64,000 nt of DNA from Endozoicomonas sp. 4G (lineage in GTDB: Bacteria; Pseudomonadota; Gammaproteobacteria; Pseudomonadales; Endozoicomonadaceae): contig NZ_CP082909.1 of assembly GCF_023822025.1 (NCBI RefSeq), positions 4,241,001-4,305,000 of the forward strand. The letters run 5' to 3'. The notes under the pieces are model-generated. The model worked only from the letters and a program-made list of their open reading frames with translations. It was not told the origin of the DNA and searched no databases. The stretch's first letter is position 1, and every line of letters begins with the position of its first letter. Shown piece by piece: positions 26,966 through 44,564 of the stretch. The position numbers and the translations under genes were made by a program.

Positions 26966-28088
26966 TGCTTTTGTACTGGAAAACCTGAATACAGCCATCA
27001 TTGCTCTGGATAGCGAGCTTTGTGTCTCCTACATGAACTCTGCTGCTGAAGCGCTTCTGGATATCAGCGAAAAGAACAGCCTACAGCTCCCCCTGCCCCA
27101 AATTCTTGATCATGGCTCCATGGTTCATGACCTGCAACGAGCTATGGAACAAAACCAGCAATTTACCCGCAGAGAGTCCGAAATCGCCATAACGGGTACT
27201 TCGATAGTGGTTGATTACACCATCACCCCCATAGCCTCTCCCCACGCCTGCCTGTTAATGGAGATTCATCCAAGAGACCGCCTGCAACGCATTACCCGTG
27301 AAGAATCGCTGATCGCCAAGCAGGAAACCTCACGTATTCTCGTCCGTGGACTGGCCCATGAAATCAAGAATCCACTGGGCGGTATAAGAGGCGCTGCCCA
27401 GCTACTGGACAAACAACTGAATGACGCAGAACTCTGTGAGTTCACACAGATCATTATTGAGGAAGCGGACAGGCTCAGAGACCTGGTTAACCAGATGCTG
27501 GGCCCCATCAAGCCCCCCAGCATGAACCTTCTGAACATTCATGAAGTACTGGAAAGAGTTATCCAGCTGATACATGCCGAGACCAGCGGTCAGCTAACTA
27601 TTGTGAAAGATTATGATCCCAGCATTCCTGATCTTCCTGCTGACAGGGAACGATTGCTTCAGGCCATTCTCAACCTGGTGCGTAACGCCATGCAGGCTAT
27701 CGAACAACATATGCCCCTGAGCGATGGCCAAATAACCGTTCAAAGTCGTATATCAAGACAGTTTACCATTGGCAACCAACGCCGGAAGCTCGTTTGTCAC
27801 CTGTCCATTATTGACAATGGCCCCGGTATTCCCGAGCACCTTAAAGAAAATATTTTTTACCCCATGATCAGTGGCAGAGCAGAGGGAACCGGCCTGGGGC
27901 TGCCCATGGCTCAGTACATTATCAGTCAGCATCAGGGGTTAATTGAGTGTGACAGTAAGCCAGGACAGACCTGCTTTCACGTCTATCTCCCGCTTACGTT
28001 TAAAGAGCCTTCAGCGGGTAAAGAGCCTTCAGCGGGTAAAGAGCCTTCGGCGGGTAAAGAGCCTTCAGCAGATACACAACAGGAGTGA
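26955..28088 (+). CDS. glnL: Nitrogen regulation sensor kinase NtrB
   Basis: Two-component kinase/phosphatase that, with PII protein, controls NtrC in response to glutamine. The 377-residue protein has a PAS-like N-terminal domain (residues 1-110), the dimerisation/phosphoacceptor helix with His in GLAHEIKNPLGGIRGAAQLL, the N box LVRNAMQAIE, and G boxes IIDNGPGIP and GTGLGLPMAQYI. No membrane helix, so it is cytosolic as expected. The C-terminus is unusual: KEPSAG is repeated from an 18-bp minisatellite just before the stop. It is followed 3 bp later by glnG. It is preceded by an NtrC site and a sigma-54 promoter. Confidence 0.97.
   Translation: MVINAFVLENLNTAIIALDSELCVSYMNSAAEALLDISEKNSLQLPLPQILDHGSMVHDLQRAMEQNQQFTRRESEIAITGTSIVVDYTITPIASPHACLLMEIHPRDRLQRITREESLIAKQETSRILVRGLAHEIKNPLGGIRGAAQLLDKQLNDAELCEFTQIIIEEADRLRDLVNQMLGPIKPPSMNLLNIHEVLERVIQLIHAETSGQLTIVKDYDPSIPDLPADRERLLQAILNLVRNAMQAIEQHMPLSDGQITVQSRISRQFTIGNQRRKLVCHLSIIDNGPGIPEHLKENIFYPMISGRAEGTGLGLPMAQYIISQHQGLIECDSKPGQTCFHVYLPLTFKEPSAGKEPSAGKEPSAGKEPSADTQQE
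28001..28072 (+). repeat. 18-bp minisatellite at the 3' end of glnL
   Basis: Four units of TAAAGAGCCTTCAGCGGG, the last degenerate, encode KEPSAG repeats at the C-terminus of NtrB. The unit differs at only two positions from the coding-strand unit of the repeat in rnz (44295-44420). Confidence 0.95.
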
Positions 28089-28091
28089 TGA

Positions 28092-29522
28092 ATGAGTACG
28101 GATTCTAAAGTCTGGATTATTGATGATGATCGTTCTATCCGCTGGGTGCTGGAAAAAGCCCTGGCTGGAGAACACATCGAAACAGAGGCCTTTGATTCCG
28201 CCGACAAAGCGCTGCGAGAGCTTCACTACTCGCAGCCCGAAGCGATTATCAGCGATGTCAGAATGCCTGGTACCAATGGACTGGAATTCCTCAAGGAAGC
28301 GCACAAGACGTATCCGGATCTGCCGGTCATCATTATGACGGCTCACTCAGATCTTGACAGTGCTGTATCTTCCTACCAGGGTGGCGCTTTTGAGTACCTT
28401 CCCAAACCCTTTGATGTAGACGACGCCGTTTCACTGGCCAAACGTGCTATTGAGCACAGCCGCCAGAAAAAAACAGAGCAGGTTATTGAGGCAGTGGATA
28501 ACGGTACTGAAATTATTGGCGAAGCACCTGCCATGCAGGAAGTCTTTCGAGCCATTGGCAGGCTGTCGCAATCCAATATTACCGTACTGATCAATGGCGA
28601 GTCTGGGACAGGGAAAGAGCTGGTTGCCCGGGCACTGCACAAGCACAGCCCCAGGGCCGGTAATCCCTTTATTGCCCTGAATATGGCAGCCATCCCCAAA
28701 GATCTGATTGAATCAGAACTCTTTGGTCATGAAAAAGGGGCCTTTACCGGTGCCGGTGCCATGCGCAAGGGACGCTTTGAACAGTCTCAGAATGGCACAC
28801 TGTTTCTTGATGAAATCGGAGATATGCCGGCAGAAACGCAAACCCGGCTACTTCGGGTACTGGCCGATGGTGAGTTCTATCGAGTGGGTGGTCATACTCC
28901 GGTAAAAGTCGATGTCCGTATTATTGCCGCCACTCACCAGAATCTTGAAAAACTGGTTGAGGAAGGCGCTTTTCGTGAAGACTTGTTCCATCGACTCAAT
29001 GTTATTCGTGTGCACCTGCCAAGACTGAGAAAACGATCAGAAGATATTCCTGTCCTGGCCAGACACTTCCTGGATAAGGCCGCTAAAGAACTGAACGTTG
29101 AACCCAAAGTGCTGACCAGGGAAACCGCGAAATTTATGGCCAGCCTGGAATGGCCCGGCAATGTCAGGCAGCTGGAGAACACTTGCCGCTGGTTGACCGT
29201 AATGGCTTCAGGCCGGGAAGTGCTGATTTCTGATCTTCCGCCTGAACTGTTGGGCCAGCCCGACAGTAACAACCCGGTCACTCCCCAGTCAGTTAACTGG
29301 GAGCAGCAGCTGCGTCTCTGGGCAGACAGAGAGCTGGCAGCAGGTCACAGCAGCATTCTGAATAAAGCGGTTCCAGTGTTTGAAAAAATCCTGATCGAAT
29401 CCGCCCTACAACATACAGGGGGTCGAAAAAGAGAGGCTTCTGAACGGTTAGGCTGGGGAAGAAACACCCTGACCCGTAAAATAAAAGAGCTGAAAATGTC
29501 CGACAAGGCTTTGACAGAATAA
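28092..29522 (+). CDS. glnG: Nitrogen regulation response regulator NtrC
   Basis: Sigma-54-dependent activator phosphorylated by NtrB. The 476-residue protein has an N-terminal receiver domain (DDDRSIRW; phosphoacceptor Asp in ISDVRMPG), an AAA+ domain with Walker A GESGTGKE, the sigma-54 contact loop GAFTGA and Walker B GTLFLDEIGD, and a C-terminal Fis-type helix-turn-helix (KREASERLGWGRNTLTRKIKEL). Its predicted sites are visible in front of glnA and glnL. It starts at ATG 28092, 3 bp after the glnL stop, so translation is coupled. Confidence 0.98.
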   Translation: MSTDSKVWIIDDDRSIRWVLEKALAGEHIETEAFDSADKALRELHYSQPEAIISDVRMPGTNGLEFLKEAHKTYPDLPVIIMTAHSDLDSAVSSYQGGAFEYLPKPFDVDDAVSLAKRAIEHSRQKKTEQVIEAVDNGTEIIGEAPAMQEVFRAIGRLSQSNITVLINGESGTGKELVARALHKHSPRAGNPFIALNMAAIPKDLIESELFGHEKGAFTGAGAMRKGRFEQSQNGTLFLDEIGDMPAETQTRLLRVLADGEFYRVGGHTPVKVDVRIIAATHQNLEKLVEEGAFREDLFHRLNVIRVHLPRLRKRSEDIPVLARHFLDKAAKELNVEPKVLTRETAKFMASLEWPGNVRQLENTCRWLTVMASGREVLISDLPPELLGQPDSNNPVTPQSVNWEQQLRLWADRELAAGHSSILNKAVPVFEKILIESALQHTGGRKREASERLGWGRNTLTRKIKELKMSDKALTE

Positions 29523-29688
29523 CACCGATGAGAACCGGGGGAGCCGTTTCTCTGGCGGTACTCTCCCTCTGAACACATCAACACGCCCGAATATCTTGCC
29601 CTGCCAGCCAATAAACGATCCTGTCCATCAAGATTCTGAGAGTTCCTATACTCCATTTAGATAACACCAGATAGGAAGTAGGTGTCTT

Positions 29689-30243
29689 ATGAATCTCCCA
29701 GCAAAAGCCTGCAGAGGCTTGTTCGCTTCGTTACTTATTCTGATCGCATTGCCAACTTATTCTGCCCAGCAAGGCAGCCCCGGCAAAACCTCCACAGGCT
29801 CATTCAGTATCCAGCTAGTGATACAGCCCAAATTACAGGCCACCATAGCCACCCCCTCCCTAGCTCAGACAGATGATGGCGATTCAACCACTGCCGAACT
29901 CAGTGATGCCACTGCAACCGTTGCCAAATTCAATGAAGTGGAGCCCATTTGCATCAAGGGTACCGGGATTAATCAGTATTCCGTTGTTACCGAAGGTTCA
30001 GGAACAGGGGGTTCCTATGCGCTCTCCAATGATCAAAGGTCCTATAACTATGAAGTCGACCTCTGGTCTTCTAATCTGGAAGCCCACTCCCTGAGCAGCG
30101 GTCAGAGCAGCAACCCGATCAATACACTACCACGCAATTCAGACTGTGATAGCAGTCAAACGGGTTTTATGGTGAAGCTACCCCGGGATGTCGCTCAGCA
30201 GCCCCTTAAAGGTGAACTGAACTTGATTATCAATGCTGAATAA
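29689..30243 (+). CDS. Secreted protein of the pilus locus, putative minor subunit
   Basis: A 184-residue protein with a Sec signal peptide (residues 1-25, cut after YSA) and a small beta-rich exported domain. FSIQLVIQPKLQATIA at its N-terminus resembles the leading strands of the pilin encoded at 34755-35333 (FDITLYNNSKIQIYGL). Two cysteines (CIKG, NSDCDSS) could form the single disulfide typical of chaperone-usher subunits. It lies 74 bp upstream of the fimbrial chaperone on the same strand. A role as a minor pilus subunit is inferred from position and shape; no family was recognised. Confidence 0.55.
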   Translation: MNLPAKACRGLFASLLILIALPTYSAQQGSPGKTSTGSFSIQLVIQPKLQATIATPSLAQTDDGDSTTAELSDATATVAKFNEVEPICIKGTGINQYSVVTEGSGTGGSYALSNDQRSYNYEVDLWSSNLEAHSLSSGQSSNPINTLPRNSDCDSSQTGFMVKLPRDVAQQPLKGELNLIINAE

Positions 30244-30317
30244 GACGGTTTACCAGAAACCATAGTCACCATAAAATAGAGGCCAAAGACCATTACAAAA
30301 ACACAAGGGTTCAACCG

Positions 30318-31028
30318 ATGCGGTCATGGCTTAAACGCTATCTTTTCCTTCCATCATTAGCTACGGCATTTCTGGCTATAACATTTAACGCCTATGGCGC
30401 CATGTCCCTGGATAAAATGATTGTCTATTTCGAGCCGGACAAATCCCCCCGTCAGGACATAGTCGTTACCAATCCGGACCCGGAAAACCTGTATCTGCAA
30501 ACTGAGGTCTACAAAGTCGTTAATCCCGGCACCGAACAGGAACAAAGGATTCGTATTACCGACCCTTCTGAGCTGACATTACTCAGCACGCCACAGAAAA
30601 CCATTATCGCCCCCAACAGCCGAAAAACCGTTCGACTGGTCAGTCTGGAGACACCGGAAACAGTAGAGTCCGTCTACAGGGTAACCTTTAAACCCGTCGT
30701 CGGTGATCTGGAAGCGACGCAGAATGCCATTAAACTGCTGATTGCCTACCAGACACTGGTCTTTGTTCGCCCGGAAAACCCAGAGTACAAAGTGACCGCC
30801 AAACGAGATCAGGACTCAATCACTTTCACCAACAGTGGCAACATTAATGTGGTACTGCGCAATGGGCAGTTCTGCTCAGGTCAGGACAATAAACGTCAAT
30901 GCTCTGATATTGATGATGTTAAACGACTGTATGCCGGGCAGAGCTGGACATTGAAAATTCCCAGCAGCAAAACCGAAGTTGAATACGGTTTATTCAATGG
31001 CAGCACAGAGGAGAGAAAGAGCTTCTAA
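30318..31028 (+). CDS. Periplasmic pilus chaperone, class-5 (alpha) type
   Basis: A 236-residue protein with a signal peptide (about residues 1-28) and two immunoglobulin-like domains. MSLDKMIVYFEPDKSPRQDIVVTNPDPENLYLQTEVYKV is the donor-strand face, and IIAPNSRKTVRLVSLE holds the basic groove residues. The C-terminal domain (TFTNSGNINVVLRNGQFC) is shorter than in FimC. The lack of the usual PapD signature and the PDPENLYLQ form fit the CfaA/CS1-type chaperones. It is convergent with the 31025-31993 gene, with a 4-bp overlap. Its partner usher and pilin are on the other strand. Confidence 0.85.
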   Translation: MRSWLKRYLFLPSLATAFLAITFNAYGAMSLDKMIVYFEPDKSPRQDIVVTNPDPENLYLQTEVYKVVNPGTEQEQRIRITDPSELTLLSTPQKTIIAPNSRKTVRLVSLETPETVESVYRVTFKPVVGDLEATQNAIKLLIAYQTLVFVRPENPEYKVTAKRDQDSITFTNSGNINVVLRNGQFCSGQDNKRQCSDIDDVKRLYAGQSWTLKIPSSKTEVEYGLFNGSTEERKSF

Positions 31029-31993
31029 TAAGCACTGACTGTAACGGTCATGGTATCGCTGTAGACACCCGAATCGATATTGCGAAGAGCATTCCACAAG
31101 ATCCTGACCTGCAAGGTCATATTATCCTGACCGCCACAATCCTGCTCAGAACTGACCGTCCAGACCTCGTTAGGTCGATCTCCCGGCCAACGATAACGGC
31201 GCCAGCGTTTGCTGTCGGTTTTGACCCTCATGCGATATTTAACGCAATCCGATGCATTCACACACTGCCCCTGTTTGCTCAGCATAAATTCATTGCCCGG
31301 ATTACTGCTGCTTTCAAAGTCGATAGTGACGCGTCCAGTACTACTGAATACACAGACACCGAATTGAGCATCCAGAGTCCAACCTGACAGATCATTGGCA
31401 TCCAGAGCGACGTCTTCCAGTCCTGATATTTGCACCCAATCATGCACAACGATTGGAATAGTCACCCGAATACTGTCCAAATGCTGTGTGTTTGACATAT
31501 CTTCCCCAGCAATATAAAAGCTGAAGTTGTGCGTGCCAGCCTGAAGCTTATCCAGTCGATTCCGGTTAAAGGTAAAAGTAAACGAACCCGTTACTATGCC
31601 ATTGGTAGAGGTCTGAAAGAATGAGGAGGCGCTATCGGAGTGTGTCCATTGACCGGGTACCAGACTCCCCTGATTTCCCTGATTTTCCAGCTGACTGAAT
31701 TGGGCACTGACCAAATACTCTGACAACTCATCCGCAAGATAGTTCTCAGGGACACTATTCGAAGGGCTTTGACTGCCAGGATACTCATCAGAAAGCGCTA
31801 ACCGGTAATTTTGACCGGTACAGCCCGAATTGCAATAGGAACTAAAGGAAACCCTAAAATTATAGGTGGGGTTTGCATTTCCCAAGGGGACCGTAAATGT
31901 ATCAGCCTCATAGTTAGAGAAATCAAAAAAGGCCCCGGACTCTGACGTAAAAAGCATCAGTGCTGCAAAAACCACCCCAGTAAAATACTTCAA
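31025..31993 (-). CDS. Putative tip adhesin or minor pilin of the chaperone-usher locus
   Basis: A 322-residue exported protein (signal peptide to about residue 21) with two beta-rich halves. The second half begins WVQISGLEDVALDANDLSGW, which closely mirrors IQIYGLEDVEINDTDG of the major pilin, showing that it carries a related pilin domain. The first half (FTVPLGNANPTYNFRVSFSSYCNSGC) is extra, as in two-domain tip adhesins such as CfaE. The order pilin-usher-this gene on the minus strand also matches cfaB-cfaC-cfaE. It starts at TTG 31993 with AGG nine bases upstream. Receptor specificity cannot be read. Confidence 0.65.
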   Translation of the reverse strand: MKYFTGVVFAALMLFTSESGAFFDFSNYEADTFTVPLGNANPTYNFRVSFSSYCNSGCTGQNYRLALSDEYPGSQSPSNSVPENYLADELSEYLVSAQFSQLENQGNQGSLVPGQWTHSDSASSFFQTSTNGIVTGSFTFTFNRNRLDKLQAGTHNFSFYIAGEDMSNTQHLDSIRVTIPIVVHDWVQISGLEDVALDANDLSGWTLDAQFGVCVFSSTGRVTIDFESSSNPGNEFMLSKQGQCVNASDCVKYRMRVKTDSKRWRRYRWPGDRPNEVWTVSSEQDCGGQDNMTLQVRILWNALRNIDSGVYSDTMTVTVSAY

Positions 31994-32103
31994 TGTTTAC
32001 AACCTTGAGCCTTTAAACAACAGGCTTTCTTATCATCAATGACCCTGAACACAGCAAGACTCCATTATTGTTTTATCTACTGTTTCCTGAACAATGTCTC
32101 TAC

Positions 32104-34608
32104 TCAGGAATCGTCTCGTTTGCCGATGGCCAGTTGGCCCTCCAGCTCGGAAACACAATCGGATTCGGAAAGATCCAGGGTTCCCATTCTTGTTATGTAT
32201 TGCTCATCCTCGGGCTCAACCGGCACAGAGCATTGCCAACCATTCGCCAGTTCAATCCGCAACTCATTAATATCCGAGCGGGCTTCTATCTGGAACATGC
32301 CAACAGTGTCTGTGCTGGAAGGATAAAGCCCTCCGGTAATCCGGGCTCCCTCCAGAGGTTTTCCATTCACCAGCAAGCGACCAAAGAGCAGTTGCAGGGG
32401 AATAGCCTCATAGTCGAGTGTCACCACGTTTCCCGGATACAGGGTGAAACGGCGCTCCCTTTCATCAAAACTATACAGGGTATCTCCTGAAGGCGACAGC
32501 GTAACGGTATATTGTTCAAAGGGTGCCAGAGGGATCACCGACGATCTGCCCGCCACCGCATAACCTCTTCGCTGACCATCAATTTTTACATCAAAAACAT
32601 CGCCTTCACGACCTTCCAGGTTCACCACCAGCGCACTCTCTGCTCTTTGCTCTCCTCCCATGGCCACCACATTGCCATCGGTCAGGAAGCTGGTACTGAA
32701 ACTGCCGTTATAGTTGGTAATCTGGTCAGCCTCTGTTGAGCTATGATTCACCGTCAATGCAGCCCTGCCAAACCGGTTACCGTACTGCAAGCTACCATCG
32801 AGTCTGCGTTCACCACTTCCCGTTTCTGCGGAGACACTGGACGACAACTGACCTTCATAAAGATCACCGTCATCCCAGGAGGCCGACAATCTCATTTTTT
32901 CAGTTCTGTTTTTGACGCCGTTATTGTCTTGAACCTCAGCCCTGGGGTTAACCCGGAAATTCCACCGGTCCTGACGGAATCGCCACTCAAAACTCAACAG
33001 CGCAACGGTATTACCTTCCGACTCACTCAAACTAAAAGTGGCGCTGGTGTTGTAATCCAGGGTTCTGAAAAGGGTAGCGGTATAACTCACCCCGTGGGTT
33101 TCTGTTCTGCCATCGCTATTGTTTCGGTTGTTGCTGAACCGGTAATTGCCGCTGCCTCTCCAGATGGGTGCAGAAACTGAAAAGCTGCTTTGCTCAAAAG
33201 CATCACCGATCAAAGCCGGACGACCACGGTTTTCTATTTCACGGGTTGCTTCGTCACTGTCCTCTTTCCAGAGTCGGCGATAACTGCCATTGAAGGAGAT
33301 GTCGCCCAGCCAGGTTCTGCCTGTCAGGGTCACACCATAGCTGCCGTTATCCGCTACCATCACCGACGGTGATAACTCATAACGGTAGCCCAGGTTAAAC
33401 AGACCCAGCTCAAGCAATGAAGTGTCTAAAGTCGCAGCGGCAGAGAGCGTGCCCGCCATGGTATCAAAAATTCTTCGACTGACACCGGCCCGGGTCAGCC
33501 ACTGTTCAGTACTTTGGGGCAGAGCACCATCAAAAACCGAGGTCATCACCTGCCCGGTCTCGGCAAAAAGCTGCCATTCACCTTCGGGCGGTATTTGATG
33601 CTGCTTAGAAAAGAAACGGGTTTCCCGAGACTGCAGATTACCCTGCTCATCGAGAATCCTGATGTCTATATCGTAGGCACCACTGGGAAATGTGGTGGTA
33701 TCCAGGGCCTGAAGACCCGCTTCATGGAAATAAGAAGCAATCAGTCGTCCATCTTTTCTGATTTCAACCCTGCCCCTGAGGGGCATAAAGATTTCAACCG
33801 GCATACCGCCACTGAAATCGGTATCGTTTCGGGTGTTATCGGAACTCTGAAAACGGGCTCCCACGAGGGGCTGATCGGAGGTAAAGTTCAGGCCAAAACC
33901 CTGACTGGAAAGCAGGCCAAGATTATATTCAAAGCCTTCATATTCCCTCTGACCATACAGCTGACTGACCGAGAACTGTTGTGACTTTGAATAATCCCAG
34001 CTCCACAGCACACTGTTTTCATAATAAGACAACAGTGTCAGACCATTCAGTGTGTAATCGTTGCCATTGGCATCTTCAGAGGTGCCAGTAGCCGCGGCGG
34101 AAAAGTTCTGCATGATGGCAAAGCCTGCGTCGGAGGGCGGCAGGTATTTTCTGACATCGGCGGCCCGGGTCAGCAGGAAGCGGGGGTTAACAAACACATC
34201 CACCCGGAAGCGGGATTCATCAAAAATCACACCGGCGACGGGAGGGTTAAGAACTCCGCAATCCGTTGTGACATTAGGCGGACAGATGGCCTCGGCATGG
34301 GTATTCAACTCCCCCGATAACGCCGTGGTCAAAAAAACAGGATCATTCACCGAACCTATCAGGCGCACCACTTCATTAACATTGGAGAGAGTAATGTTAC
34401 CGGGTTGGAAGGTAGCCAGCTGGGAGGTTAAGTAGCGGTTACCATAATAGATATCCACCAGCGACTGCTGGGGCTCGCTGAGCGTCTCAAAACCTTCAGG
34501 GACTTTATTCTGGGCAAGAAAAAGCGGCTGACTGGCCACGGCTTTCGAGAAAATAAAAGCCATGGGCAATGCAATACAGACAATGTCAATGCATTTGCGC
34601 CTGGTCAT
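32104..34608 (-). CDS. Outer-membrane usher, class-5 (CfaC/TcfC-like)
   Basis: An 834-residue usher with a signal peptide (to about residue 26) and an N-terminal domain beginning QNKVPEGFETLSEPQQSLVDIYYGNRYL. The long barrel region is rich in alternating strands (FSVSQLYGQREYEGFEYNLGLL, LELGLFNLGYRYELSPSVMV) and contains the plug domain (EIFMPLRGRVEIRKDGRLIASYF). The C-terminal domain is Cys-paired (CSVPVEPEDEQYITRMGTLDLSESDC). It forms the pore through which subunits are secreted and polymerised. The short N-terminal domain and overall form fit the alpha family (CFA/I, CS1) rather than FimD. It lies 146 bp downstream of the pilin gene behind hairpins, which would lower its expression. Confidence 0.9.
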   Translation of the reverse strand: MTRRKCIDIVCIALPMAFIFSKAVASQPLFLAQNKVPEGFETLSEPQQSLVDIYYGNRYLTSQLATFQPGNITLSNVNEVVRLIGSVNDPVFLTTALSGELNTHAEAICPPNVTTDCGVLNPPVAGVIFDESRFRVDVFVNPRFLLTRAADVRKYLPPSDAGFAIMQNFSAAATGTSEDANGNDYTLNGLTLLSYYENSVLWSWDYSKSQQFSVSQLYGQREYEGFEYNLGLLSSQGFGLNFTSDQPLVGARFQSSDNTRNDTDFSGGMPVEIFMPLRGRVEIRKDGRLIASYFHEAGLQALDTTTFPSGAYDIDIRILDEQGNLQSRETRFFSKQHQIPPEGEWQLFAETGQVMTSVFDGALPQSTEQWLTRAGVSRRIFDTMAGTLSAAATLDTSLLELGLFNLGYRYELSPSVMVADNGSYGVTLTGRTWLGDISFNGSYRRLWKEDSDEATREIENRGRPALIGDAFEQSSFSVSAPIWRGSGNYRFSNNRNNSDGRTETHGVSYTATLFRTLDYNTSATFSLSESEGNTVALLSFEWRFRQDRWNFRVNPRAEVQDNNGVKNRTEKMRLSASWDDGDLYEGQLSSSVSAETGSGERRLDGSLQYGNRFGRAALTVNHSSTEADQITNYNGSFSTSFLTDGNVVAMGGEQRAESALVVNLEGREGDVFDVKIDGQRRGYAVAGRSSVIPLAPFEQYTVTLSPSGDTLYSFDERERRFTLYPGNVVTLDYEAIPLQLLFGRLLVNGKPLEGARITGGLYPSSTDTVGMFQIEARSDINELRIELANGWQCSVPVEPEDEQYITRMGTLDLSESDCVSELEGQLAIGKRDDS

Positions 34609-34671
34609 GACCCGGAAAATCCTTTTTGGTACTGCCCTGATGTTTAAGTACCCGACAGTGGGTGCTTATTG

Positions 34672-34745
34672 CCGTGAGTTGGCTCACGGTTGTTGTTATA
34701 TTTTTTGGAGAGCCAGCGACGGTGCCGGAGTCAACTTCGCTGGCT
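34672..34745 (-). terminator. Two hairpins between pilin and usher genes
   Basis: AGCCAGCGA (34711-34719) pairs with TCGCTGGCT (34737-34745), and CCGTGAG (34672-34678) pairs with CTCACGG (34683-34689). They sit between the major-pilin stop and the usher start, where chaperone-usher operons commonly attenuate transcription or process the mRNA. Confidence 0.6.
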
Positions 34746-34754
34746 TATTTGCGA

Positions 34755-35333
34755 TTAAATTGGGCTGACAGTTACAGTGGCTGTCCCTGTGTAAATCCCG
34801 GGATCTGCATTTGTATAATCAGGCGCTACAACAATGCTATAAGAGTTTGCTCCAGAACAGGCAGACACATTATTAAAATCGTTAGTTGTTACTGTCAGAT
34901 CATCACCACTCAGCTCACCGCTATTATTTCCCCCGACACCCCAGAGGCCATCACTAGTATCCGTACCACCAGCATCTTTCAACTGCAAGGTATATGGAAC
35001 AGTAGTACCAGAACCTGAATCAGTATTGGTAAGTTCAAATGTACCACTTGCTGTACCCATTGAAATATTAAACTGAGCAGCATTGGCAGCTACGCAAACC
35101 GGTGTAGAACCAGTGGCATTTGTAGCACCAGGCAGACCATCAGTATCATTGATCTCAACGTCTTCAAGGCCGTATATCTGAATCTTGCTGTTGTTGTATA
35201 GGGTTATATCGAAATCACCTGTAGATGAGCTGTCACTTGGACTCCCTGGATTGGTTGCAGCCTGAAGCCCAGAAGAAGCCATCCCCGCCGATAGCGCAAC
35301 AGCTATAGCTATAGCTACTTTTTTAAATTCCAT
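34755..35333 (-). CDS. Putative major pilin subunit
   Basis: A 192-residue exported protein. ATG 35333 is chosen over ATG 35345 because GGAG lies six bases before it. The signal peptide runs to about residue 26 (AIAVALSAGMASSGLQA). The mature part begins TNPGSPSDSSSTGDFDITLYNN and is rich in Ser, Thr, Gly and Asp with few charged helices, typical of a self-assembling beta subunit. Two cysteines (PVCVAAN, VSACSGANS) can form one disulfide. The GLEDVEINDTDG segment is shared with the adhesin-like protein at 31025-31993. Its position first in the pilin-usher-adhesin run, followed by attenuating hairpins, fits the most abundant subunit. Confidence 0.75.
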   Translation of the reverse strand: MEFKKVAIAIAVALSAGMASSGLQAATNPGSPSDSSSTGDFDITLYNNSKIQIYGLEDVEINDTDGLPGATNATGSTPVCVAANAAQFNISMGTASGTFELTNTDSGSGTTVPYTLQLKDAGGTDTSDGLWGVGGNNSGELSGDDLTVTTNDFNNVSACSGANSYSIVVAPDYTNADPGIYTGTATVTVSPI

Positions 35334-36357: not shown

Positions 36358-36362
36358 GGGGG

Positions 36363-36385: not shown

Positions 36386-36390
36386 GGCGA

Positions 36391-36852
36391 TCAGTTGACG
36401 GTCGCTTCCTGCTGTTCACGAGCCTGCAGGTACAGGGCGTCGAAATTGACAGGTGCCAGCATCAGCGGAGGGAAGCTGCCACGCAGAACCAGGTTATCAA
36501 TGGCTTCACGGGCGTATGGGAACAGAATGTTCGGGCAGAAAGCGCCCAGCGTGCGATGCAGCTCATCGTCACCCAGACCTTTGACCAGGAAAACACCTGC
36601 CTGCTGAACTTCAGCCAGGAAAGCCGTTTCTTTCTCTTCTTCCGAGCCGTTCTGAACGGTGATGGTCAGGGACAGTACCACCTCATACATATCATCGTGC
36701 AGCAAACGGTTAGTGGTATTCAGGTCCAGTTTAACTTCCGGCTGCCACTGAGCCTGAAACATTTCCGGAGACTTTGGCGATTCAAAGGACAGGTCCTTTA
36801 CGTAAATACGCTGCAGCGCGAACTGCGCCTGATCTTGCTGATTTTCAGCCAT
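36391..36852 (-). CDS. secB: Protein-export chaperone SecB
   Basis: Cytosolic tetrameric chaperone that keeps preproteins unfolded and delivers them to SecA. The frame reaches 36894, but ATG 36852 ([24 protein letters not shown]), preceded by AAGGAAG, gives 153 residues, the normal size. Diagnostic segments are [33 protein letters not shown] and the C-terminal [36 protein letters not shown]. It lies downstream of a rhodanese-like gene as in E. coli (yibN-grxC-secB), here without grxC. Confidence 0.97.
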
Positions 36853-36991
36853 TATCACTTCCTTAAACACATCGGTTCTGAATTCGATTCCCACTTAATA
36901 ATGGGGATAAAAATACCCATATCAAGTCGGGTAATCAGCAGTTTTAAAAAACGGGCCTGATCCTCTGAAGGTTCAGGGAGCGAGTCCGTTG

Positions 36992-37408
36992 TTAGTTTTT
37001 CACCAGAGGCAGACTGTCAGTCGTCCAGGTGCCCATACCGCCCTTGAGTCGAACCACCTGCTCAAACCCGGCATCTTTTAATTGCTTGCCAACGGTACCA
37101 CTATGCTGTCCCATAGCATCAACGACAATAACCGGTTTGTCCTGGTGTTTCTTCAGCTCGCCGATACGCTCAGCTACTTTGCCATAAGGCATGCTGATGG
37201 CATCAACAATATGACCTTTGTTGAAGTCGGCTTTTTCCCTGACATCGAGAACGATAGCCTTTTTCTGGTTAATCAGCTGAGTGACTTCCTGGGAACCAAC
37301 GGTCTGACCGCCTTTACGCATCTCGACAAAGAGCAGAGCACACACCAGAGCGACCAGAGCACCCACTAATATAGGGTGGTTGCCTATAAATTCAATAATC
37401 TGTTCCAT
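36992..37408 (-). CDS. YibN-like membrane-anchored rhodanese lacking the catalytic Cys
   Basis: A 138-residue protein from ATG 37408, with one N-terminal membrane helix (ILVGALVALVCALLFVEM) and a cytosolic rhodanese domain (VLDVREKADFNKGHIVDAISMP; VRLKGGMGTW). In the active-site loop the usual Cys is replaced: VVDAMGQHSGTVG has no cysteine, so sulfurtransferase chemistry is not expected. It is the E. coli YibN equivalent by position, upstream of secB and divergent from gpmI. A TTG at 37423 would add five residues. A redox-independent binding or scaffold role is inferred. Confidence 0.9.
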   Translation of the reverse strand: MEQIIEFIGNHPILVGALVALVCALLFVEMRKGGQTVGSQEVTQLINQKKAIVLDVREKADFNKGHIVDAISMPYGKVAERIGELKKHQDKPVIVVDAMGQHSGTVGKQLKDAGFEQVVRLKGGMGTWTTDSLPLVKN

Positions 37409-37453
37409 ACTGAACCAGTTCAAATATGCTTTAACGAAGGAAAAATAGCTTAC

Positions 37454-37620
37454 CCCTCACCGTTTGGAAGGTGTCGCAAAACTCTAACCACTCGTTCCCA
37501 CGCTCCGCGTGGGAATGCATACCTCCCCTGAAAAGCGGACTCTACAGCGTGAGATAGGTATGGGTTCCCACGCTGGAGCATGGGAACCAGGGTTTCGCGA
37601 CACCTCTTTGAAAGGTGAGA
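37454..37620. mobile_element. MITE-like palindromic element of about 165 bp
   Basis: The ends are inverted repeats: the left reads CTCACCGTTTGGAAGGTGTC and the right end, reversed, CTCACCTTTCAAAGAGGTGTC. Inside are two REP-type palindromes built on GTTCCCACGC...GCGTGGGAA (37493-37517) and GTTCCCACGCTGGAGCATGG (37564-37583). It has no coding capacity. This architecture matches non-autonomous repeats seen across gammaproteobacteria. It sits between the rhodanese gene and gpmI. Confidence 0.7.
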
Positions 37621-37966
37621 ACCGCGCCAGTTTTCGTGATTGATTGCCGTAAGGCGGCAAGTATACAGGCTGCTAAATCGACTTACGACCGTTTCACCTT
37701 CCTTGCCACCAGTGCACCCAAAAAGAGAGCGGTAGTCAGTATCCGCAAAATGAGTCACAAATCACCAACTGAAAACAGAGAAAATCAGGCTTTGACCAAA
37801 ACATCTGTTCTATTCTGCAAATAGCGAATTTCTATCGGCCTATCTCTGGAAACCAGCCCCAAAGCAGGTAGAATTCAAGCTCCTTAACGCTCCAAACGCT
37901 GAGCCGAAAATACTGCTCAACCTGGTTTCGCTCACCATTTTGGCCACTATGCCCAAGGTTTGATCC
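37621..37966. other. Intergenic region before gpmI
   Basis: About 345 bp with no convincing open frame. It must hold the gpmI promoter, but no clear -35/-10 pair was found. Confidence 0.5.
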
Positions 37967-39496
37967 ATGACTGACAAGCGTAAAACCACCGCCCTGATCA
38001 TCCTCGATGGTTACGGTTATCGAACAGAATCTGATTCTAACGCCATCCTGGCTGCTCATACCCCGGTGATGGATCGTCTTCAGAAGGAACATCCTTTCAG
38101 TTTCGTCTCGGGCTCCGGTCTGGACGTGGGCCTGCCCGATGGCCAGATGGGTAACAGTGAAGTCGGCCACATGAACCTCGGTGCCGGTCGCGTCGTCTAT
38201 CAGGACTTTACCCGCATCACAAAATCCATTGAGGACGGTGATTTCTTCGAGAACAAAGCGTTTACCAACACCATCGACAAAGCCGTCTCGACAGGGAAAG
38301 CGGTTCACATCATGGGGCTGATGTCTCCTGGTGGTGTTCACAGCCATGAAGATCATATCAATGCCATGGTGGAACTGGCCGCAAAACGTGGCGCTAAAGA
38401 AGTCTACGTTCACGCATTTCTGGATGGCCGAGATACGCCACCACGCAGCGCCGAAGCTTCTCTGGCAAAAACCGACGCCCTTCTGAAAGAAAAAGGTATT
38501 GGCAGGGTAGCCAGCCTGATCGGTCGTTATTACGCCATGGATCGTGATAACCGTTGGGAACGGGTGCAGGAAGCCTACGACCTGATGACCCTGGGCAAAG
38601 CCGAGTTTTCTGCCAAAACCGCAGTCGAAGGTCTGCACGCAGCCTATGAGCGTGATGAGAACGACGAGTTTGTAAAAGCCACCACCATCGGCAAAAGCCC
38701 GGCCATCATCAATGACGGTGATGCGGTGCTGTTCATGAACTTCCGTGCCGACCGGGCCCGTGAAATCACCCGGGCTTTTGTCGAAAAAGATTTTGACGGC
38801 TTCCCTCGCAGCAAAGAACCCGTCATGGCCGGATTCGTGATGCTGACTCAGTACGCCGCCAGCATCGACACGATCTGTGCCTACCCGCCTTCCGAACTGC
38901 CTAACACTCTGGGTGAGTACATGGAAAAGCTGGGAAAAACACAGCTGCGCATTGCCGAGACTGAAAAGTATGCCCACGTCACCTTCTTCTTCAGCGGTGG
39001 CCGTGAAGAGCCCTATAAAGGTGAAGAGAGAGTTCTGGTTGCCTCACCCAAAGTGGCCACCTATGACCTCAAACCTGAAATGAGCGCTCCGGAAGTGACT
39101 GACAAACTGGTGGCTGAGATCAAGAGCGGCAAGCATGACCTGATTATCTGCAATTACGCTAACTGCGACATGGTGGGTCATACCGGTGTATTTGATGCGG
39201 CTTTGAAAGCCGTGGAAGCCGTGGATCAGGCCATTGGCAGAGTGATTGAAGCACTGGATGAAACCGGTGGTCAGTGTCTGATTACCGCCGACCACGGTAA
39301 CGCTGAACAGATGGTGAATCCTGAAACCGGGCAGATCCACACGGCCCACACCTGTGAGCTGGTTCCCCTGGTTTACTTCGGACCTAAAGCCATTCAGCTG
39401 AAAGACGGGATTCTGTCTGACCTGGCTCCTACCCTGCTGGATCTGATGGGCATCGAAAAACCAAAAGAGATGACCGGCCAATCTCTGGCAGGCTGA
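37967..39496 (+). CDS. gpmI: 2,3-bisphosphoglycerate-independent phosphoglycerate mutase
   Basis: Glycolytic interconversion of 3- and 2-phosphoglycerate with Mn2+. The 509-residue protein begins [14 protein letters not shown] (metal-binding Asp) and has [18 protein letters not shown] with the phosphoserine in [30 protein letters not shown] and [14 protein letters not shown] bind substrate, and the C-terminal phosphatase-like domain has [12 protein letters not shown] and [11 protein letters not shown]. It starts at ATG 37967. In relatives gpmI is followed directly by envC and ctpA; here about 5.2 kb intervenes. Confidence 0.99.
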
Positions 39497-39514
39497 TCTT
39501 TCAGAACCTCGTCA

Positions 39515-39546
39515 GAACGGGACTGGAAGCGAACGGGACTGGAAGC
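39515..39546 (+). repeat. 16-bp tandem duplication downstream of gpmI
   Basis: GAACGGGACTGGAAGC occurs twice head to tail. The second copy supplies the left arm of the terminator stem. Confidence 0.9.
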
Positions 39547-39564
39547 AGGACGCATCCAGTCCCG
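39534..39564. terminator. Hairpin between convergent gpmI and FKBP gene
   Basis: CGGGACTGGA (39534-39543) pairs perfectly with TCCAGTCCCG (39555-39564) across an 11-base loop. There is no T-run. Confidence 0.6.
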
Positions 39565-39572
39565 GGCCGCTA

Positions 39573-40193
39573 TCAGGAAACCGCCAGCAACTCTACTTCA
39601 AAGACCAGAGTGGCGTATGGGCCAATGGCACCACCCGCACCCTGGGCACCGTAGGCCAGGTTGTAGGGGATGAACAGTTTCCACTTGGCGCCAACAGTCA
39701 TCAGTTGCAGGGCTTCGGTCCAGCCAGCAATAACACCATTAACCGGAAACTCGATGGGCTCGCCACGATCCACAGAGCTGTCAAACACTGTGCCGTTCAG
39801 CAGAGTCCCGTGGTAGTGGGTGCGAACGGTGGCGTTGGGTCCTGGCTTTTCACCATTCTCATCACCGGCCACCAGCACTTCGTATTGCAGGCCTGATTCG
39901 GTCACCGTCACTTCATCGCGCCTGGCATTCTCAGCCAGGAATATTTCACCCTCGGCAGACAGCTCTTTGGCTTTCTCAGCTTCCTGAGCCTGGATGCGTT
40001 GGTGCATTTCGTTGAACGCTTCCTGCAAAGCAGAATGTTCAACCGCGCTGGGAGCCCCGTTCAGGGAGTCCGCCAGACCAGCCAGAACGGCATCAATGGA
40101 CAGGCCTTCAATAGGATTGCTGGCCAGCTGGTCGCCCATTTGACGGCCAATACCATAGCTTACGCGCTCTTCGACACTTGTATATTCAGACAT
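39573..40193 (-). CDS. fklB: FKBP-type peptidyl-prolyl isomerase, FklB-like
   Basis: Prolyl isomerase and chaperone. At 206 residues it has the length of E. coli FklB. The N-terminal dimerisation helices (VEERVSYGIGRQMGDQLAS through QAQEAEKAKELSAEGE) precede a C-terminal FKBP domain: VRTHYHGTLLNGTVFDSSVDRGEP, FPVNGVIAGWTEALQLMTVGAKWKLFIP, YGAQGAGGAIGPYATLVFEVELL. No signal peptide, so it is cytoplasmic (FkpA would be exported). It is inserted between gpmI and envC relative to the commoner order. It starts at ATG 40193. Confidence 0.95.
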   Translation of the reverse strand: MSEYTSVEERVSYGIGRQMGDQLASNPIEGLSIDAVLAGLADSLNGAPSAVEHSALQEAFNEMHQRIQAQEAEKAKELSAEGEIFLAENARRDEVTVTESGLQYEVLVAGDENGEKPGPNATVRTHYHGTLLNGTVFDSSVDRGEPIEFPVNGVIAGWTEALQLMTVGAKWKLFIPYNLAYGAQGAGGAIGPYATLVFEVELLAVS

Positions 40194-40418
40194 TCAATTA
40201 TTCACTTCGGATAAAACTGATGTAAACGATTCACATCGCTCAGGCGGATGCCATAAATCTGCTTTTCAGCCTTTTTATGGCGAAAGGTGGGGCACTATAC
40301 CACGAACCTGCCCGACTTCAGATTTAAAACCAGCAAAAATCCCTGTTGCTGCAGCAGGAACGACTACCCTGATAAATCTGTCCAGAGTTTCAGCTTGATC
40401 AACTTGTCGGAGTAGCCC

Positions 40419-41882
40419 GTGGTTTTGAGAAAAGTATCTCTCCTGTTCATAACTCTGTTTTCCATAAGCTTCAGTGCCATCCTTCAGGCTCAGGATGAGC
40501 TGGTCTATGTCCTCTGGAGCCTCACTTCCCGGGCAGAAATGTATCTGATTCAGCATCAGAACAATAACCGGTTCAGAGTTCTGACTTCGATCAAACGGGA
40601 CCTGAGCCTCGATGAAGCGTATTTGGGCCATAGTGGGAACATTGCTTCCAAGCGAAGCCGCATGGCCATAAAGAAAGGTGGTTATGACCCTTCTAAGAAC
40701 GCTGCGGCTGTGGCCAGAAAAATGTCCCGGGAAATGCTTGAAGCCCAGAAGCGGGTCTTGGCTCGACAGGGGATAGACCCTGTAAAAATGCCCACTTCAT
40801 TCCTCTATGCAGTCGCCGGTTTTAGTGCCACCAAGGCCAAAGAAGGGGATGAACTGTACGCCTATTTTAACCCACAGGATGTGATTGACATTCAGAATCA
40901 GGCAGAAACGGCCATTAAAGAAACCTTTCAAAGCAGCGGAATCGCTCTGACTGACATCTGGACGACCCGCGATAAAAATTTAATCAGGGAAGCCATGAAA
41001 TGGATGAAAGCAGAAGATGAGCTGTTCGTTTTTAAAACCACCTACGATCTGGTGTGTTCCATGGAACAGGGCGAGTTAAAAACCGTTGATATGAAAATGT
41101 ATCATGAGAATAGCGAAGAGGATCCCAAAGCTGACCTTGAGATGCCAATGATGGCTCCCAAGCCACGCAAGCTACCCAAACTCATTCCCAGTGGCAGCGT
41201 TCATAGCATTGGTGCCTTGGCCAGTGACGAGTTTTTCACCAGTGACAAGTTTTTCCCCGATCTCGCCGACAGCCGTTGCAATAGGCTTTTAGAGGAATGC
41301 TGGGCAAAGCTGGCACTATGGGACAAATATAGAGCTAACCATCAGTATCAGGAGATTCTTTCAGACGCACTTGCCTGTCGCACCATTACAGAACTCTGTC
41401 TGGAAGAGATTGACCTGAAAACAAAACAGATCCAAGCCCCCAAGTATCTGAAGCAACACATGGATGCAAATGCATCGGACAGTGAGTTCCTTGACCGCTA
41501 CACACAACGTAAAAGAAACAATGAGCTGGGTCATAAAATCCTGTTACTCAAGCTACAGGACTCAAACGCACCAGCGGTTCTCAAAGAGTGGTATGTAAAA
41601 CACCTGAAAGACACCATGCAGCCCACTCTGGACGAGATACAGAAACATGCTGCAGGTTTGCGTGCCAAAGCGGCAGAAAAGGGAAAATCGACCCCTCCCC
41701 ATGTTTACTTTCTGGGAGAATACGCCGAAATCAACGAGATTGATTTTGTCAATGCCTTGTTCAGAGAGCGCTTTAAGAAATGGGGACTGGCCTACTCCTA
41801 CATCGACAAGCATAAGACTCATTATTTGATAGCGGCTGGCGCTTTGAAGCTGGTCCACTCATTCCGTCAAACGAACCTCTGA
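40419..41882 (+). CDS. Secreted protein of unknown family, tandem copy 1
   Basis: A 487-residue protein from GTG 40419 with GGAG eight bases upstream. The Sec signal peptide ends AILQAQ (about residue 25). No family was recognised with confidence. The C-terminal half has SGSVHSIGALASDEFF, RKRNNELGHKILLLKL and HVYFLGEYAEINEIDFVNALFRERF. Their order faintly recalls the TraB/GumN fold (GSxHxG ... RN ... V.vGa.H), but the final His is missing. Four or more cysteines in the middle (RCNRLLEEC, CRTITELC) suggest disulfides in the periplasm or outside. About three quarters identical to its tandem neighbour. It may act in the envelope or as a secreted factor. Confidence 0.7.
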   Translation: MVLRKVSLLFITLFSISFSAILQAQDELVYVLWSLTSRAEMYLIQHQNNNRFRVLTSIKRDLSLDEAYLGHSGNIASKRSRMAIKKGGYDPSKNAAAVARKMSREMLEAQKRVLARQGIDPVKMPTSFLYAVAGFSATKAKEGDELYAYFNPQDVIDIQNQAETAIKETFQSSGIALTDIWTTRDKNLIREAMKWMKAEDELFVFKTTYDLVCSMEQGELKTVDMKMYHENSEEDPKADLEMPMMAPKPRKLPKLIPSGSVHSIGALASDEFFTSDKFFPDLADSRCNRLLEECWAKLALWDKYRANHQYQEILSDALACRTITELCLEEIDLKTKQIQAPKYLKQHMDANASDSEFLDRYTQRKRNNELGHKILLLKLQDSNAPAVLKEWYVKHLKDTMQPTLDEIQKHAAGLRAKAAEKGKSTPPHVYFLGEYAEINEIDFVNALFRERFKKWGLAYSYIDKHKTHYLIAAGALKLVHSFRQTNL

Positions 41883-41966
41883 CCAACAGGCAATGACGCA
41901 GAAGGAACTACTACCCTGATAAACCTGTCTAAATTTTCAGCTTAATCAACTTGTCGGAGTAGCCCC

Positions 41967-43430
41967 ATGGATTTAAGAAAAGTATTCCTCCTGTTCATAA
42001 CCCTGTTTTCCATAAGCTTCAGTGCCATCCTCCAGGCTCAGGAAGAGCTGGTCTATGTACTCTGGAGCCTCAATTCCCGGGCAGAAATGTATCTGGTTCA
42101 GCGTCTGGACAATGACAAGTTCAGCGTTCTGGCCTCGATCAAACGGGACATGAGTATCGACGAAGCTTATCTGGACCATGTTGGGAACATTGCTTCCAAC
42201 CGAACCCGTTATGCCATGGAGAAGGGTCATTATGACCCCTCCAGAAACGCTGCGGCTGTGGCCAGAAAAATGTCCCGGGAAATGCTCGAAGCCCAAAAGC
42301 CGGTATTGGCTCAAAAAGGAATAGATCCTGCGAAAACACCCGCTTCATTCCTCTATGCAGTGGCTGGCTTTGATGCCGCCACAGCCAAAGAAGGGGATAA
42401 ACTGTACATCTTTTTTAACCCACAGGATGTGATCGACATTCAGAAGCAGGCAGAAACAGCCATTAAAGAAACCTTTCAAAGCAGCGGAATCGCTCTGACT
42501 GACATCTGGACGACCCGTGATACCGATTTGATCGGGGAAGCCATGAAACAGATGGAAGCAGAAGATGAACTGTTCGTTTTTAAAACCACTTACGATCTGG
42601 TGTGTTCCATGGAGCAGGGAACCTTGGAAACCGTCGATATGAAAATGTTTTACAGAGATAGCAAAGAGGATTTCAGAGCTAACCATCAGATGCGGGTAAT
42701 GACGGTTCCCAAGCCGCGCAAGCCACCCAAATCCATTCCCAGTGGCAGCATTCACAGCATTGGCGCCTTCGCCAGTGACGAGTTTTTCGCTATTGACGAT
42801 TTTTTCGCCAATGCCAAAACCGATTGCAAGAGGCTTATAGAGGAATGTGAGGAAAAACTGGCACTGTGGGATGAATATAGAGCTAACCGTCAGTACCAGA
42901 AGATTCTTTCAGACTCACGTGCTTGTAGCGCCAATAGAGACCTCTGTCAGGAAGAGATTAAACTGAAAGCAAAACAGATCGAAGCTCCCCTGTATCTGAA
43001 GCAACACATTGATCCAAGTGCATCGAACAGAGAGTTCTTTGACCGCTACTCACAACGCAAAAGAAAAAATGAACTGGGTCATAGAATCCTGTTACTCAGA
43101 CTACAGGACTCACAAGCGCCAGCGGCTCTCAAAGAGTGGTATGTTAAGCACCTGACAGACACCATGAAGCCCACGCTGAATGAGATACAGAAACGTGCTG
43201 CAGGTTTGGTTACCAAAGCGGCAGAAAAGGGAAAATCGAACCCTCCCCATGTTTACTTTCTGGGAGAATACGCCGAAATCAACGAGATTGATTTTGTCAA
43301 TGCCTTGTTCAGAGAGCGCTTTAAGGAATGGGGACTGACCTACTCCTACATCAATAAGCAGGAGACTGATCAATTGGTAGCGGCTGGCGCTTTGAAGGTG
43401 ATCCAGTCATTGCGTCAAACGAACCCCTGA
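41967..43430 (+). CDS. Secreted protein of unknown family, tandem copy 2
   Basis: A 487-residue paralogue of the preceding gene, exactly equal in length, starting at ATG 41967 (the equivalent codon is GTG in copy 1) with the same GGAG. The signal peptide and the conserved blocks (AAAVARKMSREMLEAQK, FNPQDVIDIQ, AETAIKETFQSSGIALTDIWTTRD, FLGEYAEINEIDFVNALF) are nearly unchanged. Most changes lie in the 210-300 linker and the surface-like helix around 330. Equal length and retained cysteines indicate that both copies are functional. The 84-bp gap is a copy of the upstream flank of copy 1, so each probably has its own promoter. Confidence 0.7.
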   Translation: MDLRKVFLLFITLFSISFSAILQAQEELVYVLWSLNSRAEMYLVQRLDNDKFSVLASIKRDMSIDEAYLDHVGNIASNRTRYAMEKGHYDPSRNAAAVARKMSREMLEAQKPVLAQKGIDPAKTPASFLYAVAGFDAATAKEGDKLYIFFNPQDVIDIQKQAETAIKETFQSSGIALTDIWTTRDTDLIGEAMKQMEAEDELFVFKTTYDLVCSMEQGTLETVDMKMFYRDSKEDFRANHQMRVMTVPKPRKPPKSIPSGSIHSIGAFASDEFFAIDDFFANAKTDCKRLIEECEEKLALWDEYRANRQYQKILSDSRACSANRDLCQEEIKLKAKQIEAPLYLKQHIDPSASNREFFDRYSQRKRKNELGHRILLLRLQDSQAPAALKEWYVKHLTDTMKPTLNEIQKRAAGLVTKAAEKGKSNPPHVYFLGEYAEINEIDFVNALFRERFKEWGLTYSYINKQETDQLVAAGALKVIQSLRQTNP

Positions 43431-43436
43431 CCAACA

Positions 43437-43466
43437 GGCAGGAGAGGCAACAGGCTCTCTCCTGCC
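43437..43466. terminator. Hairpin between convergent paralogue 2 and rnz
   Basis: GGCAGGAGAG (43437-43446) pairs perfectly with CTCTCCTGCC (43457-43466). It abuts the rnz stop codon. There is no T-run on either strand. Confidence 0.65.
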
Positions 43467-44564
43467 TCACTCAATTCGAGTCAGCTTTCTTTCCCTGTCC
43501 AAAGCCCAGCAAGCAAAGTCTTCAGCCAGTTCAACCTGTCCACTGAACACCGATTGAGCTTCACTTCTGAGTGCTTCAACTGATGAGGCAAAGTCAGACG
43601 CCTGTTGCTGATAACGGCCACTGATGTGGGTCAAAATGACATAGCGCACTCCACCCTTTTCAGCCGCTTTACCCACCATTCTGGCGGTACTGTGCATATA
43701 TTGCGGCCCCACTTTTTCCAGAACAGGCTCTGTAAAGGTGGCTTCATGTACCAGCACATCAACACCTTTCATGGCATTTATCAGCAGATCAGGCTGGTCA
43801 TTATCACCACCAATAATAGCTACTCTGCCTGAGCTGGGCGGTAGTCTTACATCCTGTGGATGAACAATAGTACCGTCCGCCAAGGTGACACTGTTGCCAT
43901 TCTGCAACTCTCCCCAAAGTGGCCCCTTTGGCACGCCCAGCGCCGCCAATTTGTCCTGATCCATTGATGGAATAACAGGTTGCTCTGCAAAGCGATAGGC
44001 GTAGCTGGGAACGCGATGGGAGAGTTCATGGGAAGTCACTTTAATGCGCCGATCCTGAAAGTGAAAATCAGGTTCATCACTGCGAACAAAATTCAGTTCG
44101 AAAGGCATATTTCTGACGGCAGCACATTTCAGTGAATGTCTGACAAAGCTTTCTACGCCCTGGGGTGCACAGATCGTTAAGGGGTCTTTCCTGCCCTGCA
44201 TACTGGCGCTGGTGATCAGGCCGGGCAGTCCAAAGATATGGTCGCCATGGACATGGGTGATGAAAATACCTGCAAGGCCGGACAGTGTGTAGCGGCTCTT
44301 TACCCGCTGATGGCTCTCTACCCGCTGATGGCTCTCTACCCGCTGATGGCTCTCTACCCGCTGATGGCTCTCTACCGGCTGATGGCTCTCTACCGGCTGA
44401 TGGCTCTCTACCCGCTGATGGCTCCTTAATAACCGCTGCTGGGTTCCTTCACCACAGTCCACCAGGTACCAGTCTCGACTTTCGTCCAGAGCCAGGGCCA
44501 TTGCGGTCACATTTCTGTCTACGGTGGGAGAGCCTGCCGAGGTTCCCAGAAAAGTAAATCTCAT
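43467..44564 (-). CDS. rnz: Ribonuclease Z with in-frame minisatellite insertion
   Basis: Metallo-beta-lactamase-fold endonuclease that processes tRNA 3' ends. MRFTFLGTSAGSPTVDRNV at the start, the Zn-binding HVHGDH at 104-109 with IFGLPGL, HELSHRVPSYAYRF, the LVHEATFTE motif and the final ILTHISGRY are all present, so the active site is intact. At 365 residues it is about 60 longer than E. coli RNase Z (305). The excess includes seven SHQRVE-type hexapeptides at residues 48-89, inserted between CGEGTQQRLL and IFITHVHGDH, a loop near the active-site edge. It starts at ATG 44564. Confidence 0.95.
   Translation of the reverse strand: MRFTFLGTSAGSPTVDRNVTAMALALDESRDWYLVDCGEGTQQRLLRSHQRVESHQPVESHQPVESHQRVESHQRVESHQRVESHQRVKSRYTLSGLAGIFITHVHGDHIFGLPGLITSASMQGRKDPLTICAPQGVESFVRHSLKCAAVRNMPFELNFVRSDEPDFHFQDRRIKVTSHELSHRVPSYAYRFAEQPVIPSMDQDKLAALGVPKGPLWGELQNGNSVTLADGTIVHPQDVRLPPSSGRVAIIGGDNDQPDLLINAMKGVDVLVHEATFTEPVLEKVGPQYMHSTARMVGKAAEKGGVRYVILTHISGRYQQQASDFASSVEALRSEAQSVFSGQVELAEDFACWALDRERKLTRIE
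44295..44420 (-). repeat. 18-bp minisatellite inside rnz, seven copies
   Basis: On the coding (minus) strand, seven near-perfect units of TAGAGAGCCATCAGCGGG encode SHQRVE/SHQPVE hexapeptides. The unit matches the glnL minisatellite TAAAGAGCCTTCAGCGGG at 16 of 18 positions but is translated in a different frame. Length is a multiple of three, so copy-number change keeps rnz in frame. Confidence 0.95.

Follow-up and report, generated by a model that had tools for sequence, protein, structure and literature searches.

The origin of minisatellites is usually put down to chance slippage. The repeats treated here, a family of tandem arrays with the common core AGCCNTSAGC, were noticed in the genes glnL and rnz in a stretch of 64,000 nucleotides of Endozoicomonas sp. 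4G (contig NZ_CP082909.1, positions 4,241,001 to 4,305,000; hereafter the window), and several described bacterial systems lie close to them. A survey of bacterial minisatellites and variable number tandem repeats (VNTR) includes short-repeat families common to unrelated species (PMC6749651). The Rickettsia palindromic elements (RPE) measure 105–146 bp and carry terminal inverted repeats as well as long stem-loops, according to a review (PMC2229807). BrickBuilt, a minisatellite-type miniature inverted-repeat transposable element (MITE) of Porphyromonas gingivalis, is described as having a leader and a tail with small inverted repeats and as always being intergenic (PMC4596501).

With bacterial minisatellites and VNTR (PMC6749651) the core family shares short head-to-tail units, many arrays in coding sequence and copy numbers that vary between relatives, here at the species level (seven sites were compared across relatives, between species). 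It differs in having one sharp 10-bp core at unrelated loci, use of all six frames, spacers that are specific to each array and a pair of bases that covary. RPE (PMC2229807) are likewise repeats that have entered conserved protein genes in frame; such in-frame insertion was found for the core family in 20 open reading frames (ORFs), of which 19 have a Pfam match. However, the core family consists of tandem units of 15–24 bp without a stable fold, and neither terminal inverted repeats nor a long stem-loop as in MITEs or RPE were seen in the folding of five arrays. BrickBuilt (PMC4596501) resembles the family in its tandem units of approximately 20 nucleotides at many chromosomal places, whereas in the core family ORFs harbour 20 of 37 arrays and no constant leader or tail was seen when the flanks of the 37 arrays were inspected by eye. 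The GGGNATC heptamer repeats of Xanthomonas and Nostoc (PMC4692102) are also formed by one short tandem unit at many places in distant taxa; core-family arrays differ in that they often lie within genes and fold no better than shuffled sequences. Literature searches on repeats of Endozoicomonas, on minisatellites and on selfish repeats within genes, with subscription literature largely outside their reach, retrieved no description of the family, and among the matches listed for six 10-letter core strings no title referred to bacterial repeats. The best-supported account of the family, to which we assign a probability of roughly one half, is repeated birth in place: new arrays arise at a motif and then undergo ordinary growth and decay; the arrays in glnL and rnz are best read as independent cases of this one process.

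Both window arrays have a period of 18 bp. The glnL gene (nitrogen histidine kinase; positions 26955–28088 of the window, forward strand) is an ORF of 377 amino acids whose Pfam matches (HATPase_c, HisKA and PAS) all end ahead of the array. The array occupies the last codons (28001–28072, forward strand) and consists of four units TAAAGAGCCTTCAGCGGG with 0, 0, 1 and 2 mismatches, read as KEPSAG. The rnz gene (RNase Z, beta-lactamase fold; 43467–44564, reverse strand; 365 amino acids; Pfam Lactamase_B_2) contains an internal array of seven units TAGAGAGCCATCAGCGGG and close variants (44303–44428, reverse strand), which is read as SHQRVE and touches the edge of the Pfam match. At its downstream edge a partial unit TAAAGAGCC in register with the array (44294–44302, reverse strand) continues into the conserved ...KSRYT codons; the array is placed on AAGAGCC. 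Tandem Repeats Finder (TRF) detected 3.8 copies (96% matches) in glnL and 7.3 copies (97%) in rnz, and 11 unit matches with up to three mismatches were counted in the window, compared to 0.06 expected from shuffles. The two consensus units differ at two of 18 positions, and the core starts in codon phase 1 in glnL and in phase 0 in rnz. This bears out the original prediction, made for this DNA from its letters, that the four units of glnL and the seven of rnz agree at 16 of 18 positions, are both sense to their gene and are read in different frames. The closest named relatives of rnz found were those of Endozoicomonas sp. ISHI1 (81%) and E. arenosclerae (76%).

In the whole genome of strain 4G (one contig of 6,004,453 bp) the 18-mer was present at 33 places with up to two mismatches, mostly in tandem. 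Beyond the window these places include an AsmA-like gene, the start of a tamB-like gene, gspD (with a period of 21 bp) and the end of rnr; identical 18-mers occur in glnL and the tamB-like gene. With three mismatches, further arrays emerged that have little in common beyond the core. Tandem pairs were searched as two AGCCNTSAGC cores with 4–14 bases between them, using the reversed pattern as control. The genome contains 145 such pairs (83 + 62) at 41 loci and none of the reversed pattern, and pairs are present in nine of ten genomes of the genus, where all reversed controls were zero. By type, AGCCNTGAGC accounts for 85 pairs at 25 loci and AGCCNTCAGC for 60 at 16 loci; since these add up to 145, no mixed-type pair exists. 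Four of the 41 loci, at genome positions 3995665–4005453, look paralogous (three of them were fetched); three of the four were dropped for the orientation counts, which cover 38 loci, and 37 of the 41 arrays were read in detail. Array periods range from 15 to 24 bp and copy numbers from 2 to about 11.

The specificity of the core was assessed against the repeat background in a sample of 1.98 Mb from three genomes, comprising 1.18 Mb of strain 4G (56 stretches plus the window) and 0.40 Mb each of genomes G002 and G003. TRF arrays with at least three copies and a period of at least 9 bp numbered 130, 18 and 17, respectively, corresponding to approximately 110, 45 and 42.5 per Mb; core loci, at 6.8, 2.9 and 2.9 per Mb, follow this background. 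Without preselection, the core was present in 12 of 193 TRF arrays with periods of 14–26 bp (four of the 12 are paralog-like and form one group of similar genes), compared to none with the reversed core and 0–2 with one-letter variants at the fixed positions. Tandem loci made up 12 of 88 core loci (three paralog-like). By comparison, 1497 random genomic patterns had on average 0.07 tandem and 44 single loci, and only one of them, derived from a repeated protein segment, reached at least 12 tandem loci. The numbers of single cores outside arrays, 20 and 15, were close to the 13.6 and 26.6 expected by chance, so that the excess of the core is in tandem copies only. With such single-copy numbers a function as DNA uptake sequence was rejected. 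Clustering of 155 arrays gave a 9-bp QRPK repeat (21 arrays) and a 15-bp DSED repeat (14 arrays) as other large families, each of one peptide type; QRPK and DSED repeats are common to many large ORFs of the sample (L102, L107, L118, L120, L121, L137 and others).

The 20 arrays read in frame within ORFs have periods of 15, 18, 21 or 24 bp. Only the tamB-like ORF lacks a Pfam match (E ≤ 1e-5), and gspM has its match only via a 73-residue piece behind an in-frame stop. This stop lies about 75 codons before the end of gspM (L178, 4401–5052), and the core array, which keeps the frame, comes after it at the C-terminus. Fifteen of the ORF-embedded arrays are sense (core in codon phase 0 in nine genes, phase 1 in three and phase 2 in three) and five are antisense (phase 0 in one, phase 1 in two and phase 2 in two), so that all six frames are used. 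The expectation of one orientation relative to genes, drawn from the two window arrays, thus fails for the family. Relative to the best Pfam match, 17 of 19 arrays are wholly outside, the rnz array is at the edge and one is inside an ABC transporter match; the arrays have no common place within genes. Eight of the 37 arrays have a period of 16, 17 or 20 bp. Three of these extend beyond the gene stop (MobA-like, Lgt and RnfD-like), four have no ORF of 90 amino acids over them, and one lies over a 247-amino-acid ORF without Pfam match. The remaining nine arrays are in ORFs without Pfam match or unscanned, at a gene start, or without ORF.

Because the search pattern itself set the core, core positions are constant by construction in the following comparisons of flanks, spacers, adjacent units and pairs. 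Covariation was seen between the S position and the base that precedes AGCC. Taking the commonest pair of each of the 37 arrays of strain 4G, C/G was found in 18 and G/C in nine, never C/C or G/G, while in the other 10 the base before AGCC is A or T (p = 2e-7); within one two-unit array, a single unit combines G with G. At the same two positions, 23 of 24 arrays from other families fit C/G complementarity, with one C/C (p = 5e-5). The paired bases look like the recognition of a small dyad or stem, although no stable fold was predicted for five arrays on both strands, one of them typed as an ideal three-unit array (z from +0.1 to +4.2 relative to shuffles). Hairpin-driven slippage was rejected because the arrays fold no better than shuffles. 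The spacer is A-rich before the core, alike in strain 4G, other members of the genus and other orders. Differences in the 8-base spacer, determined with one hand-picked period-18 unit per array and with orthologous arrays included, amounted to 4.58 within and 4.49 between genomes; the between-genome mean includes other orders, while the label shuffle (p = 0.66) was restricted to genomes of the genus. In 16 edge units that were not selected by the core, mismatches to the array consensus affected 37 of 128 core positions (29%) and 35 of 136 spacer positions (26%), and maintenance of the core against drift inside arrays is therefore unsupported.

Presence or copy number of arrays varies among relatives at all seven sites compared; arrays are gained, growing and decaying within the genus. 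Both-flank orthologous sites were recovered among the stretches fetched in relatives for five of the 37 arrays, four of them new. For rnz, all nine relatives were read: G009, the sister genome, has an array with the spacer GAACA-, G008 has a degenerate array, and the other seven have none, the empty site reading LLKSRYT or similar. The glnL array was absent from five of nine relatives, namely those whose glnL end was recovered by text pattern, three of which carry near-cores. In the AsmA-like gene, strain 4G has about 11 units, G008 about four and G009 one, those of G008 and G009 being degenerate, and no unit was found in the outgroup G001; in gspM the same four genomes have 0 (G001), 3 (G009), 2 (G008) and 4 units (4G). 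The hemD gene of G009 has one native AACAGCCGTGAGA, a single near-core, as compared to three copies AACAGCCGTGAG in strain 4G. The five-unit array of gspD in strain 4G corresponds in G009 to one near-core that keeps the same register, and G008 and G001 have no array in this gene. The gspJ array was absent from G001, G008 and G009. At four of the five array-less sites of G009 the core is matched at 9 of 10 positions, for which the chance is 1.9% each (60-base stretches, placed by hand).

The tandem core reaches across the order, where pairs were detected in 98 of 292 genomes (reversed control in nine), with the highest numbers in G226 (269) and G141 (213). The further copies in the genome and in relatives, and the tandem enrichment that had been looked for on the basis of the window arrays, were thus both found. 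In a class-wide draw, 29 of 369 genomes had the tandem core (reversed control in eight), and three of the 29 belong to the same order. Order and class counts include 7-bp arrays in which AGCCNTS is repeated, and among the matches listed, seven of the 29 genomes show only such arrays. Pure 7-bp tandem repeats AGCCCTC or similar, corresponding to the first seven bases of the core, were seen in G451, G275, G152, G604 and others. In G439, from another order, one array has the 18-bp unit of the core family except for the N base. Periods of 22–24 bp are common in G226, G141, G285 and G246 (L220–L232), which represent one other family of the order, with spacers like GGTTTTTGTAAAG inside and outside ORFs.

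Birth in place would proceed as follows. A site close in sequence to AASAGCCNTSAGC, in which the base before AGCC is complementary to the second S, would be prone to tandem duplication with a spacer of approximately 5–14 bp; we infer that the motif itself provokes this duplication. The newborn array would grow or shrink by slippage or unequal exchange, and its edges would decay. Births may take place on either strand, inside genes and outside. Within genes, survival would be limited to arrays whose period is a multiple of three, and therefore the peptide would vary from gene to gene. The cause is probably a putative conserved DNA-acting protein that nicks, binds or stalls at the motif. A more specific version is put forward only tentatively. 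In it, an enzyme or replication factor that is conserved in the Gammaproteobacteria and sequence-specific would act at AASAGCCNTSAGC, probably on a small dyad or hairpin in which the base before AGCC pairs with the second S, and by copying the site in tandem would serve as a minisatellite maker that writes in-frame repeats into housekeeping proteins.

Several observations weigh against birth in place. The empty rnz sites lack most of the unit, so that an outside source is required there. Core matches in the outgroup G001 (6–8 of 10 positions at six sites) are near chance, as at least 8 matches occur in 16% of random stretches, and the matches are 8 (gspD) and 9 (glnL) in G008, 7 and 6 (rnz) in G006 and G007, and 6 (gspJ) in G009. 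Near-cores in relatives may be what is left of arrays that have shrunk, rather than seeds. The edges decay as quickly in the core as in the spacer. TC-type arrays often read NGGTAAAG, including those of other orders, which would fit a copied unit as well. In strain 4G, 11 of 38 inter-array gaps are below 25 kb (p = 0.008). Orientation tends to be shared between neighbouring arrays, only eight of 38 neighbours being discordant (p = 0.00015). No such sharing was seen in G002 and G003 (p = 0.72 and 0.15). The orientation blocks along the 4G chromosome are not accounted for by GC skew, and a replication-direction bias (25:13 in strain 4G, 10:9 in G002 and 11:7 in G003; joint p = 0.06) was unconvincing. 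The main rival is copying between arrays, a possible but clearly less probable course in which a tiny selfish unit spreads as short array pieces, copied to new sites by template switching or gene conversion at microhomologies of 5–9 bp such as AAGAGCC, and then expands. The rnz insert on this very heptamer and the identical 18-mers in glnL and the tamB-like gene speak for it, and with the local clustering, the shared orientation and the spacer NGGTAAAG of several arrays, some copying is therefore possible. Plain copying within a genome is nevertheless unsupported, because two arrays from one genome do not resemble each other more than two from different genomes do. In addition, the same unit is present in other orders, pooled single copies are not above chance, and neither of two subfamily patterns had a match in a viral contig collection under exact matching. 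Of the original proposal that the DNA unit spreads or is regenerated, regeneration fits better, whereas a genome-specific spreading unit finds no support in the spacer comparison.

Ordinary replication slippage in a repeat-rich genome, with a common core due to chance or protein composition, would explain the high array density of strain 4G, the way in which core loci follow that density, and the even edge mismatches. Enrichment and sharpness of the core, six frames, arrays outside recognised genes and the base-pair covariation stand against slippage, which is strongly disfavoured as the whole story and rated unlikely, although later growth of arrays by slippage is likely. We consider it similarly improbable that the tandem core is a DNA or RNA site maintained by selection, for example for a bound protein needing several sites. 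As expected of such a site, neither the motif nor its complementary pair changes between families or orders, and a clear excess exists only for tandem copies; yet presence or copy number varies at every site compared, edges decay evenly, no common place in genes and no stable fold was seen, and 20 array loci of strain 4G (70,420 bases) gave no Rfam match at gathering score. Selection for peptide repeats such as KEPSAG or SHQRVE accords with the in-frame reading of the Pfam-supported ORF arrays, nearly all wholly outside the best match, but one DNA unit is translated into different peptides. A single selected peptide is refuted as the common cause, because the arrays make use of both strands and all six frames and some are found outside recognised genes, and we regard this explanation as very improbable. 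A DNA-level process and not protein selection appears to make the arrays, and the earlier view that the cause lies in the DNA is supported.

The sites of these minisatellites are marked by a 10-bp motif in several bacterial families and orders, so that array birth can be tested with simple reporters. The arrays also show conserved enzymes acquiring repeat tails and linkers through events at the DNA level that have nothing to do with what the enzymes do, and they caution that repeat peptides such as those of glnL and rnz need no functional reading.

A Chi role of the core was considered and rejected. Among 24 core octamers only AGCCCTCA was over-represented (285 compared to 217, rank 67), without leading-strand skew (122:163); some other core octamers were mildly skewed. 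Among octamers with at least 80 counts in the 1.18 Mb of strain 4G, the Escherichia coli Chi sequence GCTGGTGG was the one most skewed to the leading strand (129:34), and Endozoicomonas sp. 4G may use this sequence. The window also contains a 12-bp repeat CATGGGTTCCTT of approximately 24 copies at positions 58403–58688, which is unrelated to the AGCCNTSAGC family.

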